From: Mycolicibacterium monacense
Lineage (GTDB): Bacteria > Actinomycetota > Actinomycetes > Mycobacteriales > Mycobacteriaceae
NCBI RefSeq assembly: GCF_010731575.1
Contig: NZ_AP022617.1
Location: 124,001-188,000, forward strand
Length of the DNA: 64,000 bases
Direction of reading: 5' to 3'
Shown here: piece by piece, positions 17,177 through 22,181 of the stretch
How the letters are laid out: every line of letters starts with the position of its first letter
Numbering within the stretch: the stretch's first letter is position 1
Translations under genes and position numbers: made by a program
Notes under the pieces: model-generated
Seen by the model: only the letters and a program-made list of their open reading frames with translations
Database searches by the model: none
What the model was told of the DNA's origin: nothing

Positions 17177-18107
17177 GGTGGCGGCGGTCGACTGCGGGAC
17201 CAACTCGATCCGGTTGCTGATCGCCGATGCCGCCGAGGGCCGGCTGACCGATGTGCACCGGGAGATGCGCATCGTGCGGCTGGGCCAAGGTGTCGACGCC
17301 ACAGGCGAATTCGCGCCGGACGCATTGGCCCGCACCCAGGGTGCGCTGGCCGCGTACGCGGAGTTGATGCGCGCCTACGAGGTGGCGAGGGTGCGGATGG
17401 TCGCGACGTCGGCGGCCCGCGACGTCGCCAACCGCGATGCGTTCTTCCAGATGACCGCCGACGTGCTGGGTGAGGTGGTCGACGGGGCGGTGGCCGAGGT
17501 CATCACGGGCACCGAGGAAGCCGAGTTGTCGTTCCGCGGCGCGGTGGCCGAACTCGACCCGGCGGACGGGCCGTTCGTCGTCGTCGACCTCGGCGGCGGG
17601 TCGACGGAGGTCGTGGTGGGCCGGGACCGGGTGGACGCGAGCTTCTCGGCCGACATCGGCTGTGTGCGGCTGACGGAGCGGTGCCTGCACTCGGATCCGC
17701 CGACGGCCGAGGAGGTGTCGGCCGCGCGGGAGTTCATCCGCGGCGCGCTCGACGAGGCGCTGCAGCAGGTGCCCGTGCAGGGGGCGCGGACCTGGGTCGG
17801 CGTGGCGGGGACCATGACGACGCTCGCGGCGCTGGCGCATCGGATGACGACGTACGACTCCGAGGCAATTCACCTGTCGCGGGTGGGTTTTCGCTCACTG
17901 CTGGAGGTGTGCGACGAGCTCATCGCGATGACGCGTCAGCAGCGGGCGGCGCTGGGTCCGATGCACGAGGGGCGCGTCGACGTGATCGGCGGCGGCGCGA
18001 TCATCGTCGAGGAACTGGCGCGTGAACTCGGCGAGCGGGCCGGGATCAACGAACTGGTCGTCAGCGAACACGACATCCTCGACGGCATCGCGCTGTCGAT
18101 CGCCTAG
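17169..18107 (+). CDS. ppx2: Ppx/GppA exopolyphosphatase family protein
   Basis: A 312-residue member of the sugar kinase/actin-like phosphatase fold. The P-loop-like VDCGTNSIRLLIAD is at residues 7-20 and the second phosphate loop VVDLGGGSTEVVVG near 138. The family hydrolyses polyphosphate or the pentaphosphate of pppGpp. The single-domain length matches Ppx2 of M. tuberculosis (Rv1026), which occupies the same place; that protein has weak exopolyphosphatase activity, and the physiological substrate is debated. The GTG at 17169 was chosen because it begins the conserved N-terminus (MVRVAAVDCG). The last four bases overlap the convergent radical SAM gene. Confidence 0.9.
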   Translation: MVRVAAVDCGTNSIRLLIADAAEGRLTDVHREMRIVRLGQGVDATGEFAPDALARTQGALAAYAELMRAYEVARVRMVATSAARDVANRDAFFQMTADVLGEVVDGAVAEVITGTEEAELSFRGAVAELDPADGPFVVVDLGGGSTEVVVGRDRVDASFSADIGCVRLTERCLHSDPPTAEEVSAAREFIRGALDEALQQVPVQGARTWVGVAGTMTTLAALAHRMTTYDSEAIHLSRVGFRSLLEVCDELIAMTRQQRAALGPMHEGRVDVIGGGAIIVEELARELGERAGINELVVSEHDILDGIALSIA

Positions 18108-19660
18108 CGCACCGCGACGATCGGCAGCGCCGCACCGGCGGTGGCCGAAAGCCGTTGGCGCGCCAGGGCCGGCCACGCCTGCACCGCGCAGAACGGGGCG
18201 CACTGGTCCTGTGCGCTGCGGGTGCCGACGTGTACGCAGCACTGCACGAGGCGTTCCTCGATCATCGTCGACATGTCCATGAAGGGTTTGACGGTGATCC
18301 GGACGACGCGCTCACCGAGCAGGCGCCGTACCTTGCGCCGTCGCCCGGGGAGCGCGGAGGAGGCCAGGGTCAGCAGCGTCGACATGCCGAGATCGCAACT
18401 CTGGCAGATGATCTGCCAGATGTCGCCGATCTGGGGATGTGACAGCGAGGACTGTTCGGACAGCAGGCCGAGCAGCGATTCCTGCACGGCCATCCGCAGT
18501 TGCCGGGGGATTTCGGAGTCGGCGATGCGGTTGGCCACCAGGCCGAGTTTCTCCTTGAGGTTGTCGTGCCCGATGAGCGCGACGAGCGAGCGCCACTGGT
18601 CGTTGTCGTCGCGGATCAGATAGCCGACGGAGCAGCAATGCGGGTGTGAGCACGGCAGCGCGGTGAGATCCCGCCACGTCACCGCACCGCCGGTCTGCGG
18701 GCCGAGTCGGCTGAGCACACCGGTGTGGGTGAGGCGGTGCTGCGGGTCGATGTCACCCGATCTGCCGGAACCGAACTGCGGTTGGATGGTCAACCCGCCG
18801 ACGTACGGGGTGGCCAGTGCGAGGCGGACCATGTCCCCGATCTCGTCGTCGTTGACGCCCAGTGCGGTCGTCATGACCAGCGTGGTGAAGATCTCCCGCT
18901 CCGAGAGGCGTTGCAGCGCCGCACGTTTGATCCGGCGCAGATCGCCGCCGCGGTGGTGCCGGTGCGCCGCCTCGGAGAGCCCGTCGTACTGCAGGTACAC
19001 CTCGACACGTTCGCGGTGGGCGGTCAGCAGGTCGAGCAGGGCGTCGTCGGTGGCGATGCGGACACCGTTGGTGTTGACCAGGATCCGGGTGATCGGGCGG
19101 TCGACGAGTTCGGTGAGCAGCTCGGCCAGCCGGGGGTGGAGGGTGGGTTCGCCGCCGCTGAGCATGACCACGTCGAGGCGGCCGTTCTCGCGCCGCAGGC
19201 GTTGATCGACGTTGGCCAGCACCTCGGCGACGGGCACCACGTTGCGCAGGTCGGGTGAGGACTCGGTGAAGCAGGTGGGGCAGCGTAGGTTGCAGGTGTC
19301 GGAGATGTCCTGCAGGAGGATGCAGGTGTGCTGGGTCTGCATCTCCGGCAGACCGCGCAGGTACGCCTGGGGAATCGGGTCGAAGTTGCCCGGCACGTCG
19401 GGGGTGTGGACCTTCGTCGGCGCCGTCCACTCCTCCAGGTAGGACAGGATCTCGGGCACCTCGTCGTAGAGCGTGCGTACCAGACCGTGGCTGCGGCAGC
19501 CCCGTTCGAGCCATACGCGGCCGTCGCGTTCGACGAGTCGGCCGCTGAGCCGTTCCACGTCGGCCAGTGGGCGTTCGGGGGCCTCGTCGTGGCAGTGCGG
19601 GCAGTAGGCGGTGACGTAGCGGTGCAAGCGGTCACCGCGCAGACCCATGCCGGCGGTCAT
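18104..19660 (-). CDS. radical SAM protein resembling the MJ0619/Tes (tetraether lipid synthase) family
   Basis: A 518-residue enzyme. The ATG at 19660 overlaps the upstream gene as ATGA. Residues 20-59 hold a rubredoxin-like site, YCPHC plus ERGCRSHG (Cys20, 23, 55). The radical SAM cluster motif CNLRCPTC is at 123-130, and SGGEPTLHP near 165 is the SAM-binding GGE motif. The C-terminus is rich in cysteines (SHPHCCSVGY, CQSCD, QCCVHVG, QCAPFCAVQAW), suggesting auxiliary iron-sulfur clusters. This layout (N-terminal zinc/rubredoxin site, SAM core, Cys-rich tail) is that of MJ0619 and of the archaeal tetraether synthase Tes, which joins lipid chains. A lipid substrate fits the operon, which encodes an Lgt-like protein; the exact reaction is not known. 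Confidence 0.75.
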   Translation of the reverse strand: MTAGMGLRGDRLHRYVTAYCPHCHDEAPERPLADVERLSGRLVERDGRVWLERGCRSHGLVRTLYDEVPEILSYLEEWTAPTKVHTPDVPGNFDPIPQAYLRGLPEMQTQHTCILLQDISDTCNLRCPTCFTESSPDLRNVVPVAEVLANVDQRLRRENGRLDVVMLSGGEPTLHPRLAELLTELVDRPITRILVNTNGVRIATDDALLDLLTAHRERVEVYLQYDGLSEAAHRHHRGGDLRRIKRAALQRLSEREIFTTLVMTTALGVNDDEIGDMVRLALATPYVGGLTIQPQFGSGRSGDIDPQHRLTHTGVLSRLGPQTGGAVTWRDLTALPCSHPHCCSVGYLIRDDNDQWRSLVALIGHDNLKEKLGLVANRIADSEIPRQLRMAVQESLLGLLSEQSSLSHPQIGDIWQIICQSCDLGMSTLLTLASSALPGRRRKVRRLLGERVVRITVKPFMDMSTMIEERLVQCCVHVGTRSAQDQCAPFCAVQAWPALARQRLSATAGAALPIVAVR

Positions 19661-20025
19661 GTCGCGTACAGGGACGGGTTGATGCCGGTGCAGATCCCGA
19701 CGGTGACCAGAGACACCAGCGCCCAGCCGACCATCAGGCCGAGGCCGATGCCCTTGGCCTGTGGGTTGCGGACCGTCAGCAGCGCGGCGCCGCCACCGAA
19801 GGCGATGAGCGCCAGCATGACCGCGGCGGCTCCGAGGATGATGTTCGCCGAGTCCGTCGACGAGCTGGCGATGATGAACGCCAGGAAACCCAGCAGCGAG
19901 TTCAGCGCGATGTAGACCGGTGCGCCGACGAACACCATGCCGATCGAGATCTTCTTCGGCGGTTGCGGCGGTGGCGCCGGGTAGCCGTAGCCGCCGGGAT
20001 TCGGCGGGCCTGGCGGATGGTTCAT
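19657..20025 (-). CDS. small proline-rich N-terminus membrane protein
   Basis: A 122-residue protein with no family that I recognise. The ATG at 20025 overlaps the Lgt-like stop (ATGA) and the stop overlaps the radical SAM start (ATGA), so it is tightly embedded in the operon. The first 25 residues are Pro/Gly/Tyr-rich (NHPPGPPNPGGYGYPAPPPQ), as in many actinobacterial membrane proteins. Three to four hydrophobic segments follow (about 30-55, 60-80, 95-115). A longer frame upstream exists, but its extra residues lie inside the preceding gene. Confidence 0.7.
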   Translation of the reverse strand: MNHPPGPPNPGGYGYPAPPPQPPKKISIGMVFVGAPVYIALNSLLGFLAFIIASSSTDSANIILGAAAVMLALIAFGGGAALLTVRNPQAKGIGLGLMVGWALVSLVTVGICTGINPSLYAT

Positions 20026-20807
20026 GCACGCACTTCCTGCTGGTGGGCTGCGGAGCGATAGTAACCACGACGGTGGCCGTACCACAGTCGAATCCCGATG
20101 AGGAGCAGCGACGGCAGCAGGAACCACTGCGGCCGAGTGAGATCGAGCCACACGGTCTCGTTGGCGCGGGTGAACTCGACGAGGAAGCGGAAGGTGGCAT
20201 AGCCGGCGATGTAGAGCACGAACAGCTCCCCGGGGTGGCGGATCCGGTCACGAAGCCACAGCAGGATGACGAAAGCGGCGAGCTGGAAGGCGATTTCGTA
20301 GAGGAATGACGGATGCATGGCCTGGCCGGTGAGACAGCCCGGGCAGTCGGGGGTGGTGGCCGGTGCGTGGATTCCCCAGGGCAGCGTGGTGGGACGTCCG
20401 GGCGCTTCGGTGAGGTGGCAGCCGATGCGTCCGACGGCGATGCCGAGGGCGACCGCCGGGGCGAACAGGTCGCCGGTCTTGCCGCGGTAACCGCCGATGC
20501 GTTTGGCGACAAGGACTCCGAGGTAGGCGCCGAGGAGGCCGCCGAGAACGCTGCGGGACCCGAATTGCCATGCCTCCGCGAGGCTGGGATTGGCGGTGAG
20601 GTCGAGGTGGCGGGCCCACCCCGACAGTCGCATACCGATCGCGCCGCCGACGAGGGCGCCGGAGGCCGCGACGACGGACTGTTCGTTGACCGCACCCCGT
20701 CGACGGGCCTCGGCGACGAAGACGACCAGAGCGGCGAGGACCCCCAGGCCGATGAAGACGCCGTGCACCGGCACCGCGACGGGGCCGAGGTGCCACTCGG
20801 GGGTCAT
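20022..20807 (-). CDS. Lgt-like prolipoprotein diacylglyceryl transferase homologue
   Basis: A 261-residue polytopic membrane protein (about seven helices) of the Lgt fold. Lgt moves diacylglycerol from phosphatidylglycerol to lipobox cysteines. The conserved regions are recognisable: VHGVFIGLGV near residue 14, GRIGCHLTE at 126-134 and HPSFLYE at 165-171, corresponding to GRxGNFxNxE and HPxQLYE of classical Lgt. The asparagine of the GRxGN motif is replaced by Cys130. Four cysteines in or near a loop (Cys130, Cys155, Cys158) are unusual. It may be a paralogue that acts on another acceptor or lipid, since mycobacteria have a separate housekeeping lgt. Coupled to downstream genes. Confidence 0.8.
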   Translation of the reverse strand: MTPEWHLGPVAVPVHGVFIGLGVLAALVVFVAEARRRGAVNEQSVVAASGALVGGAIGMRLSGWARHLDLTANPSLAEAWQFGSRSVLGGLLGAYLGVLVAKRIGGYRGKTGDLFAPAVALGIAVGRIGCHLTEAPGRPTTLPWGIHAPATTPDCPGCLTGQAMHPSFLYEIAFQLAAFVILLWLRDRIRHPGELFVLYIAGYATFRFLVEFTRANETVWLDLTRPQWFLLPSLLLIGIRLWYGHRRGYYRSAAHQQEVRA

Positions 20808-20847
20808 CGGCGGAATGTAGCGGCCCGGTCACCGGGTGCGCAACGGC

Positions 20848-21552
20848 TCACGCGGCCAACGACAGTCCGGCGGCCAGCGCGAACCCGAGGACCGCTGCCA
20901 GACCTGCCTGTTCGCGCGCCTTCTCGGTGGCCTCCGGGATCATCGACCCGACGAGCATGACGAGCAGCGCACCGGCCGCGAATCCGTCGATCCCGCCCTG
21001 CAGCGATGCGCCCGCGATCTCCCGCAACTGGTATCCGCCCACGGTGGCGGCAGCGCAGAGGAGTGCGATCGCCGTCCAGCCCAGCACAATGCCCTTGACC
21101 CGGTGACCGGCGCCGCGCAGATCGCTCGCCGACCCGACGGCCTCCGGCAGGTTCGAGACGAAGATCGCCGTCAGCAGCGCCGGACTGACCGCGCCGCCGG
21201 CGGCGATTCCGATGCCGAGGACGGCTTGTTCCGGTATGCCGTCGAGCAGGGCGCCGAGTAGCAGCGGTATGCCCGCCGTCGTCTTCTTCCCGTTGCCGAC
21301 GCGGTCCACCAGGTGATCGGCGATGAAGAACGTCACCGCTCCGGCGGCCAGACCGAGGGATACCGATAGGGCGCCACCGACGCGGAATCCCTCCTCCGCC
21401 AACTCGAACGAGATGCCGGCGACCAGCGCGCCGGCGCCGAAGCCGAGGACCAGACCGATGAGGTGGCGGTTCCAGTCGCGCGCGACACCCGCCAATGCGC
21501 CGACGATCAAGGAGGAGGCGGCGACCAGTCCCCAGAGCAGCGCGCCGAGCAC
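20848..21552 (-). CDS. ZIP-family metal permease
   Basis: A 234-residue membrane protein with about eight predicted helices. The paired helices LLGALLDGIPEQAVLG (about 100) and AIFVSNLPEAVGSA (about 130) match the metal-binding TM4/TM5 helices of ZIP transporters, where classical HxxxE residues are here D-G-I-P-E and N-L-P-E. This subfamily is common in actinobacteria; the metal (Zn, Fe or Mn) cannot be told. The start is GTG, three bases after the stop of the DUF4383 gene, and the Lgt-like gene follows after 40 bases, so all three are likely co-transcribed. Confidence 0.75.
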   Translation of the reverse strand: MLGALLWGLVAASSLIVGALAGVARDWNRHLIGLVLGFGAGALVAGISFELAEEGFRVGGALSVSLGLAAGAVTFFIADHLVDRVGNGKKTTAGIPLLLGALLDGIPEQAVLGIGIAAGGAVSPALLTAIFVSNLPEAVGSASDLRGAGHRVKGIVLGWTAIALLCAAATVGGYQLREIAGASLQGGIDGFAAGALLVMLVGSMIPEATEKAREQAGLAAVLGFALAAGLSLAA

Positions 21553-21555
21553 AGG

Positions 21556-22023
21556 CTAGGCGCGGGACTTGGCGCGTGGGCGCGATCTGGGCTTCGTCGG
21601 ATCGTGTTGTGCGGCAAGGGTCAGCGCCAGCACCAGCATCACGACGCCGAGCGTGAAATGCAGCCAGTTGTCGGCGCGGTTGAGGGGGAAGACCTCGGCG
21701 ATACCGCTGTGGCCGGAGCCGGCGCGGTAGAACCACACGCCGAGCAGCGCGACCCCGCCTGCGAGCAGATACGCCCGCGACGCGGCATACGTGCGGGCGC
21801 AGAACATGCCGGCCGCGCCGAGCAGGAGATGGAGCACGTTGTGCAGTCCCGATGTGGCGAACACCCCGAACAGCAGGGCATCGGACTGGTGCCCGATCCA
21901 TTCGAGGCGTTCGTAGTTTGTGGTGACGCCGGGCAGGAAGCCGAGGGCGCCGAGGAGGAGGTATCCGGTGCCGACGATCAGTGCCGCACCCTGGACGGCC
22001 ATCAACGTGGGTCTTCTCGCCAT
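21556..22023 (-). CDS. DUF4383 membrane protein
   Basis: A 155-residue protein with four membrane helices (about 12-32, 55-75, 82-102, 125-145) and a basic C-terminal tail. The motif LHNVLHLLLGAAG near residue 65 and NWLHFTLGVVML near 120 are typical of DUF4383, a family of unknown function. The ATG at 22023 has GGGAGGCGAG just upstream; an earlier in-frame ATG lacks this. It is the first gene of a minus-strand operon that runs through the ZIP, Lgt-like, small membrane and radical SAM genes. The short leader contains no motif that I can assign. Confidence 0.75.
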   Translation of the reverse strand: MARRPTLMAVQGAALIVGTGYLLLGALGFLPGVTTNYERLEWIGHQSDALLFGVFATSGLHNVLHLLLGAAGMFCARTYAASRAYLLAGGVALLGVWFYRAGSGHSGIAEVFPLNRADNWLHFTLGVVMLVLALTLAAQHDPTKPRSRPRAKSRA

Positions 22024-22181
22024 CGCTCGCCTCCCGTTGACCTGCACAGGAGCAATACCCGTGCGGCGGGACGATTAACCGGTACCCGGATTTCGCTGCG
22101 TGAGCGGGTGCTCGACGGCTCAGGCCACGCCGAGCAACGCGTGCAATAGCCGCGCCGGTCGGCGTTCCTCATTCGCGCCTC

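Follow-up and report, generated by a model that had tools for sequence, protein, structure and literature searches.

We analysed a stretch of 64,000 nucleotides from the single-contig genome (6.04 Mb) of Mycolicibacterium monacense (assembly GCF_010731575.1, contig NZ_AP022617.1, positions 124,001 to 188,000), hereafter the window. Three consecutive minus-strand genes encode (i) a paralogue of the protein-lipidation enzyme Lgt (261 residues, 20022..20807), (ii) a small membrane protein, smp (122 residues, 19657..20025), and (iii) a radical S-adenosylmethionine (SAM) protein, rSAM (518 residues, 18104..19660, ATG start at 19660), with the fold of the archaeal tetraether lipid synthase Tes. The two enzymes were assigned by profile or Pfam matches, alignments and structure models. 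As the original prediction had read them, ATGA overlaps of 4 nt occur on both sides of smp, joining the stop of the Lgt paralogue to the start of smp and the end of smp to the start of rSAM. The 863-residue open reading frame (ORF) of the window corresponds to the rSAM frame extended back into the Lgt gene. The product of this three-gene module is probably an unusual lipid or a lipid-tagged protein.

We followed the module through named genomes, using the best 80 of 344 rSAM relatives (the named loci): 49 labelled mycobacterial (including L044, an Actinomycetes metagenome-assembled genome without genus), 29 from Streptosporangiaceae and 2 from Nocardia. The nearest named relatives of rSAM belong to Mycobacterium species and are 96% identical. 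The recovered module genes are co-directional in all 80 named loci. Their order is Lgt–smp–rSAM in 61 and smp–Lgt–rSAM in 17, all of which are Nonomuraea; smp is present in 79 of 80, and L070 and L075 lack one module gene at a contig end. With starts set by alignment, a 4-nt overlap runs into rSAM at 73 of the 80 loci, the partner being smp in 56 and Lgt in 17. A tree of the 80 loci and two outgroup rows does not point to extensive exchange of the genes among genera. By record names alone, kin of rSAM are also found in Chloroflexota and Gemmatimonadota.

In a sample of 148 Mycobacterium genomes, 38 have rSAM, 41 have the Lgt paralogue and 38 have smp. All 38 rSAM-positive genomes carry the Lgt paralogue and 37 of them carry smp, the remaining one (G323) holding a strongly diverged smp. 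The Lgt paralogue occurs without a full rSAM in three Mycobacterium genomes: it lies at a contig end in G302, where smp and a cut-off rSAM start follow, and in G432, and G382 (L136, G382:C79) contains broken pieces of it, with no match to rSAM or smp on the 11-kb contig. In another genome, G365 (L139, G365:C1), rSAM is split across two frames. In a class-wide sample of 296 genomes, rSAM and the Lgt paralogue were found in the same 17. A phylum-wide sample of 296 genomes includes six with an rSAM of at least ~60% identity, and these are also the six with an Lgt paralogue at E 1e-50 or better; nine further genomes with distant rSAM relatives alone showed no match to the Lgt paralogue even at E 1e-30, and nine genomes of one other family gave an Lgt match of 34–38% without an rSAM match. 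As a control, ten loci of 4.7–20 kb around distant or fragmentary rSAM relatives (L099–L108) were compared with the profile of the Lgt paralogue and yielded no match at E 1e-3. Eight of them (L099–L106) encode distant Tes/TrsS-like radical SAM proteins of other Actinomycetota (~30% identity), most with N-terminal auxiliary cysteines. The Mycobacterium, class and phylum samples overlap in part and relatives are not independent; therefore, no probability is quoted for the linkage. The counts across named, Mycobacterium and class genomes lead us to reject a chance neighbourhood of rSAM, smp and the Lgt paralogue. The gene set is conserved in actinobacteria, with the Lgt paralogue tightly linked in related genomes; its absence there, which the original prediction had named as evidence against itself, did not occur. 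The Lgt paralogue and rSAM lie directly side by side, leaving no space for smp, in four genomes that are more distant (G103, G253, G162 and G124; loci L109, L110, L111 and L113).

The cysteines of rSAM lie at positions 20, 23, 55, 113, 123/127/130, 337, 342, 343, 419, 422, 474, 475, 487 and 491, and the predicted rubredoxin-like site (20, 23, 55), CxxxCxxC core and cysteine-rich tail are all present, with C113 as an addition. His58 completes a CCCH site of the CxxC...CxxH type resembling that of Tes, for which such a site is a described feature (PMC9433317). Both C20, C23, C55 and H58 and the SAM cluster C123/C127/C130 are kept in 63 of 63 sequences of set A1. The C-terminal cysteines are C474, C475, C487 and C491; C113, C337, C342, C419 and C422 are further conserved positions. 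The N-terminal auxiliary [Fe4S4] cysteines of Tes (C73/C77/C80, with a histidine) have no counterpart, there being no cysteine between query residues 84 and 110 in any of the 80 named loci or the 63 A1 sequences. The positions of Tes Met439 and Tyr459, reported to be completely conserved across 1000 archaeal homologues, are occupied by K458 and V478 in 80 of 80 loci. Tes variants M439A and Y459F/L are still active according to the Tes study (PMC9433317), so loss of the two residues leaves Tes-type coupling possible for rSAM. The same study describes a sulfur-containing lipid, produced by Tes when SAM is limiting, and regards the carbon–sulfur stage as an intermediate (PMC9433317).

In profile searches, rSAM reached 191 bits against NCBIfam TrsS (NF045646, residues 35–493), a radical SAM (seleno)protein family and its best NCBIfam match, yet far under the cut-off of 490, and 150.6 bits against NCBIfam Tes (NF045702, cut-off 450). 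The match to the HMPTM zinc-ribbon family, a comparison named in the original prediction, passes its gathering score (PF23545, 39.4 bits versus 27, residues 13–66) and marks a domain, not a function. The structure model matches the Tes fold over its full length, including the C-terminal domain, at 20–21% identity in structural alignments; peptide-modifying SPASM enzymes match less well (SuiB, 13.6 over 232 residues). The models of rSAM and the Lgt paralogue are of middling confidence, and residues 82–137 of rSAM, the place of the lost cluster, are unreliable. A 22-row tree sets the rSAM clade of the module on a long, fully supported branch, and since Tes and two distant rows are unsurely placed by their own long branches, we make no sister-group claim. 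The protein is thus kin to Tes (MJ0619, also GDGT-MAS), with which it shares the full-length fold, the rubredoxin-type site and the SAM cluster; it differs in lacking the N-terminal auxiliary cluster cysteines, Met439 and Tyr459 and in its extra conserved cysteines. The Tes-like character assigned to it earlier stands as kinship and fold and falls as family membership. A bacterial membrane-spanning lipid synthase, Mss, is modelled as sharing the Tes architecture (PMC13274423) and is proposed to perform chemistry of the same type, a likeness to the module by description only; the part of that source available to us mentions no Lgt partner, unlike the situation of rSAM. A repeated block, LARTRGRGSRGPERVVPGGSGGGGAPPEE, is inserted in frame near query residue 352 in the rSAM gene of G162 (L111:8999-11686, minus strand; also L005/L018).

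The Lgt paralogue passes the Pfam LGT family (PF01790, 127.6 bits, gathering score 24.9) and fails TIGR00544 (87.9 bits, cut-off 118.9), and its model (predicted local distance difference test score 63) matches E. coli Lgt 5azb at E 8.7e-6. It retains R127, Y203, R207 and E211 and has CPGC at 155–158. The equivalents of E. coli R143, R239, Y235, G142, G145, G154, E243 and R246 are each present in all 79 named loci compared. Three positions are changed: in the window, H15, L88 and C130 replace E. coli Y26, H103 and N146, and all 79 named loci have His in place of Y26 and Cys in place of N146, with Leu (75) or Ile (4) at H103. In E. coli Lgt, Y26, H103, N146, R143, R239, G154, Y235 and R246 are reported as essential, H103 is described as not universal among Lgt proteins, and N146C occurs in distant Lgt (PMC13251419). 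The same source holds the one literature trace that we found, a sentence on M. smegmatis MSMEG_5408, which carries Y26H and N146C and is presumed to have low Lgt activity (PMC13251419). MSMEG_5408, a candidate orthologue only, has both changes in common with the Lgt paralogue of the module. With canonical Lgt the paralogue shares the fold, the Pfam LGT match and the phospholipid-site arginines, and it departs from it in Leu or Ile at H103, the CPGC and the TIGR00544 score below cut-off. The genome of the window encodes a separate canonical Lgt (C1:1570325-1571095) with Y, W and N at the places of Y26, H103 and N146. Because key residues are changed and a canonical Lgt lies elsewhere in the genome, the paralogue is a second, probably specialized copy. 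The canonical Lgt (L118) continues at its C-terminus into a very long acidic tail of repeated blocks, its open frame spanning 925 codons.

The small membrane protein of the window has a Pro-rich N-terminus, three predicted transmembrane segments and a C-terminal GxCTGxNPxxY motif that holds its sole cysteine (C112). We recovered 81 copies (79 from named loci, plus L001 and L002). Of these, 79 end in a strict G-x-C-T-G-x-N-[P/T] motif and the other two have S in place of N; 65 contain a single cysteine and 72 have three hydrophobic segments. In the 79 strict-motif copies, a bulky residue (F/I/Y/L/W/M) precedes the cysteine. Of 343 database relatives, the best 120 all carry the motif, a set of best matches and hence biased towards it. 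The five deeper relatives (L135, L145–L148) lack the CTG part and retain G-x-C near the C-terminus. We dropped a possible covariation of this motif with the CPGC of the Lgt paralogue, which is also present in L146 and L147, where smp has no CTG. A lipobox ([LVIAM][ASTVIG][GAS]C) matches anywhere in just 1 of 81 copies, and we rejected smp as a lipobox lipoprotein. The window copy belongs to no Pfam family, and 13 of 27 smp members weakly match a mycobacteriophage transmembrane family (best E 0.00038). Two smp matches, mostly in tandem, occur at 14 loci (L049, L061, L067, L068, L078–L081, L085, L087, L089 and L091–L093). In the 72 three-segment copies, the loop before the last segment contains on average 2.35 K/R and 0.14 D/E, compared with 0.46 and 0.85 in the first loop. 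From this concentration of K/R, the positive-inside rule predicts the cysteine end outside, on the working side of Lgt.

Linkage, fold, residues and the topology signal are what the analysis establishes. Both enzymes have lipid-handling folds and their only other near-constant partner offers one outer cysteine; for these reasons we tentatively favour a three-gene membrane-lipid module in which the Lgt paralogue lipidates the cysteine of smp and rSAM modifies lipid chains. Lgt enzymes alkylate thiols, and in the first step the paralogue would move a diacylglyceryl group from a phosphatidylglycerol-type lipid to the thiol of the C-terminal cysteine of smp, which by its predicted topology sits at the place of a lipobox cysteine, at the outward-facing end of a transmembrane helix. 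Because a bulky residue precedes this cysteine, signal peptidase II (LspA) should spare smp, and the product would be a polytopic lipoprotein that stays uncleaved. In the second step, which could come before or after the first, rSAM would abstract hydrogen at an unactivated position of an alkyl chain and then couple or otherwise functionalize that carbon; its target would be either the phospholipid donor, still in the cytoplasmic leaflet and not yet transferred, or the lipid already attached. Modification of the donor first is favoured, as rSAM should be cytoplasmic and the cysteine of smp is predicted to face outward. A lipid or lipidated acceptor, as originally suggested, may be the substrate, and the C-terminal cysteine of smp can be named as a specific candidate acceptor. 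The observation behind that suggestion is confirmed, and its overall interpretation is partly supported.

Several points weigh against the favoured reading. Every chemical step is one that we infer, and the lipobox test failed. The Lgt paralogue lacks the Y26, H103 and N146 that are essential in the E. coli enzyme, and M. smegmatis MSMEG_5408, which has the same Y26H and N146C, is presumed to be of low Lgt activity (PMC13251419). A cytoplasmic rSAM and an outward cysteine would lie on opposite membrane faces, and rSAM scores TrsS above Tes. Since the four more distant genomes leave no space for smp, it cannot be the acceptor everywhere. In its full form, a Tes-fold enzyme that joins or remodels phosphatidylglycerol chains and a dedicated Lgt paralogue without standard active-site residues that passes the lipid to a non-lipobox, never cleaved smp cysteine in mycobacteria and other actinobacteria, the proposal is improbable.

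Those four genomes make a reading with smp as a scaffold and a free lipid as product nearly as likely as smp lipidation. Here, rSAM would, like Tes and Mss, produce a phospholipid whose chains are joined (membrane-spanning or macrocyclic) or modified in some other way, and the Lgt paralogue would pass the diacylglyceryl part of this lipid on to a different acceptor, a lipid or a headgroup; the two parts taken together are possible, in keeping with the full-length Tes fold of rSAM, the adjoining Lgt and rSAM genes in four of four distant genomes and the activity of the Tes M439A and Y459F/L variants. The missing N-terminal auxiliary cluster speaks against it, and smp with its conserved cysteine is more constant than a scaffold would need to be: 79 of the 80 named loci have it, as do 37 of the 38 Mycobacterium genomes with rSAM, and the 38th has a diverged one.

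The near invariance of the terminal motif, the translational coupling of smp to rSAM in most loci (56 of 73 overlaps) and the loci with two smp matches could instead reflect a membrane-bound system akin to ribosomally synthesized and post-translationally modified peptides. In this case rSAM would act on the peptide at the C-terminus of smp, for instance by cross-linking GxCTGxNPxxY through its cysteine, and lipidation would be added or prevented by the Lgt paralogue. We consider this unlikely: the predicted topology places the motif outside, CTGxNPxxY is absent from the five deeper relatives that retain rSAM, and rSAM matches a lipid enzyme over its whole length and SPASM peptide enzymes less.

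Somewhat less likely still, rSAM may be functionally nearer TrsS or another bacterial Tes relative and act on a non-lipid, possibly soluble substrate, the Lgt paralogue performing a separate step. The TrsS profile does rank ahead of Tes, both under cut-off, and some sources label relatives of rSAM 7,8-dihydro-6-hydroxymethylpterin dimethyltransferase, an assignment that the Tes authors call incorrect for MJ0619 (PMC9433317). Also against this reading, the eight distant proteins of L099–L106 are, unlike the clade of the module, without an Lgt-paralogue match in the stretch covered, two of their contigs being shorter than 6 kb. It is very improbable that rSAM halts at the carbon–sulfur stage to give a chain-thiolated lipid that the Lgt paralogue turns into a thioether-bridged lipid with a second diacylglyceryl group: the sulfur-containing Tes product, thiol alkylation by Lgt enzymes and the Lgt/rSAM pairs without smp agree with it, but it is pure conjecture that nothing in the sequence distinguishes, and it leaves smp without a role.

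Neither the combination of rSAM, smp and the Lgt paralogue, nor the metal-site set of the rSAM clade, nor the smp family is described among the matches listed in the open-licence PubMed Central literature, in agreement with the earlier statement that no such system was known in mycobacteria; the parts belong to known superfamilies. If lipidation of smp and modification of lipid chains by rSAM are true, mycobacterial membranes are a site of radical C–H chemistry on lipid chains, which the sources available to us describe for archaea and for bacteria that are mostly anaerobic, and this chemistry is linked to an enzyme of protein lipidation. A function would be provided for the second Lgt of M. 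smegmatis, provided that MSMEG_5408 is the orthologue, one specific acceptor cysteine would be defined, and a Tes-fold clade with a different metal-site set would be added. The patchy presence of the module (38 of 148 Mycobacterium genomes) eases natural comparisons.

Two genes precede the Lgt paralogue, smp and rSAM on the minus strand: a ZIP-like membrane protein (20848..21552), under the Pfam cut-off (20.9 versus 35.1 bits), and a DUF4383 protein (21556..22047, or 22023 if an inner ATG is used). All five had been predicted to form one operon (18104..22023). The five minus-strand ORFs are there, but the ZIP-like and DUF4383 genes are near in just 11 and 5 of the 80 named loci, respectively, and were therefore dropped as members of the module. 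Upstream of the five genes lies an ORF (window:22182-23588, minus strand), presumably for an HNH-type/13E12-repeat protein, and a convergent gene on the opposite strand, which we take to encode a Ppx/GppA-like protein, ends at 18107.

Clustering of the coding-like ORFs of the 80 loci, which broke smp up or fused it with other frames, showed that the rSAM and Lgt clusters alone reach every one of the eight genus labels (in 80 and 65 loci, respectively). Clusters 2, 3 and 5–9 are confined to Streptosporangiaceae, and cluster 4 covers 26 loci, 7 mycobacterial and 19 from Streptosporangiaceae. A fourth gene, for another small membrane protein (DPLRLC...SKCxLRDTRLV), lies within ~420 bases downstream of rSAM in 26 of the 80 named loci. 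It has no Pfam or NCBIfam family at a useful level and was not found in the genome of the window. Its family (DPLRLC...SKCxLRDTRLVL) occurs at 26 of the loci L019–L098 and at L109–L112, L135 and L145–L149; the gene has the same place downstream of rSAM in G103, G253, G162, G124 and G323 and in five of six class genomes examined (G444, G446, G466, G561 and G544, the last apparently the same genome as L078). Matches were found in 6 of the 148 Mycobacterium genomes, five of them beside rSAM.

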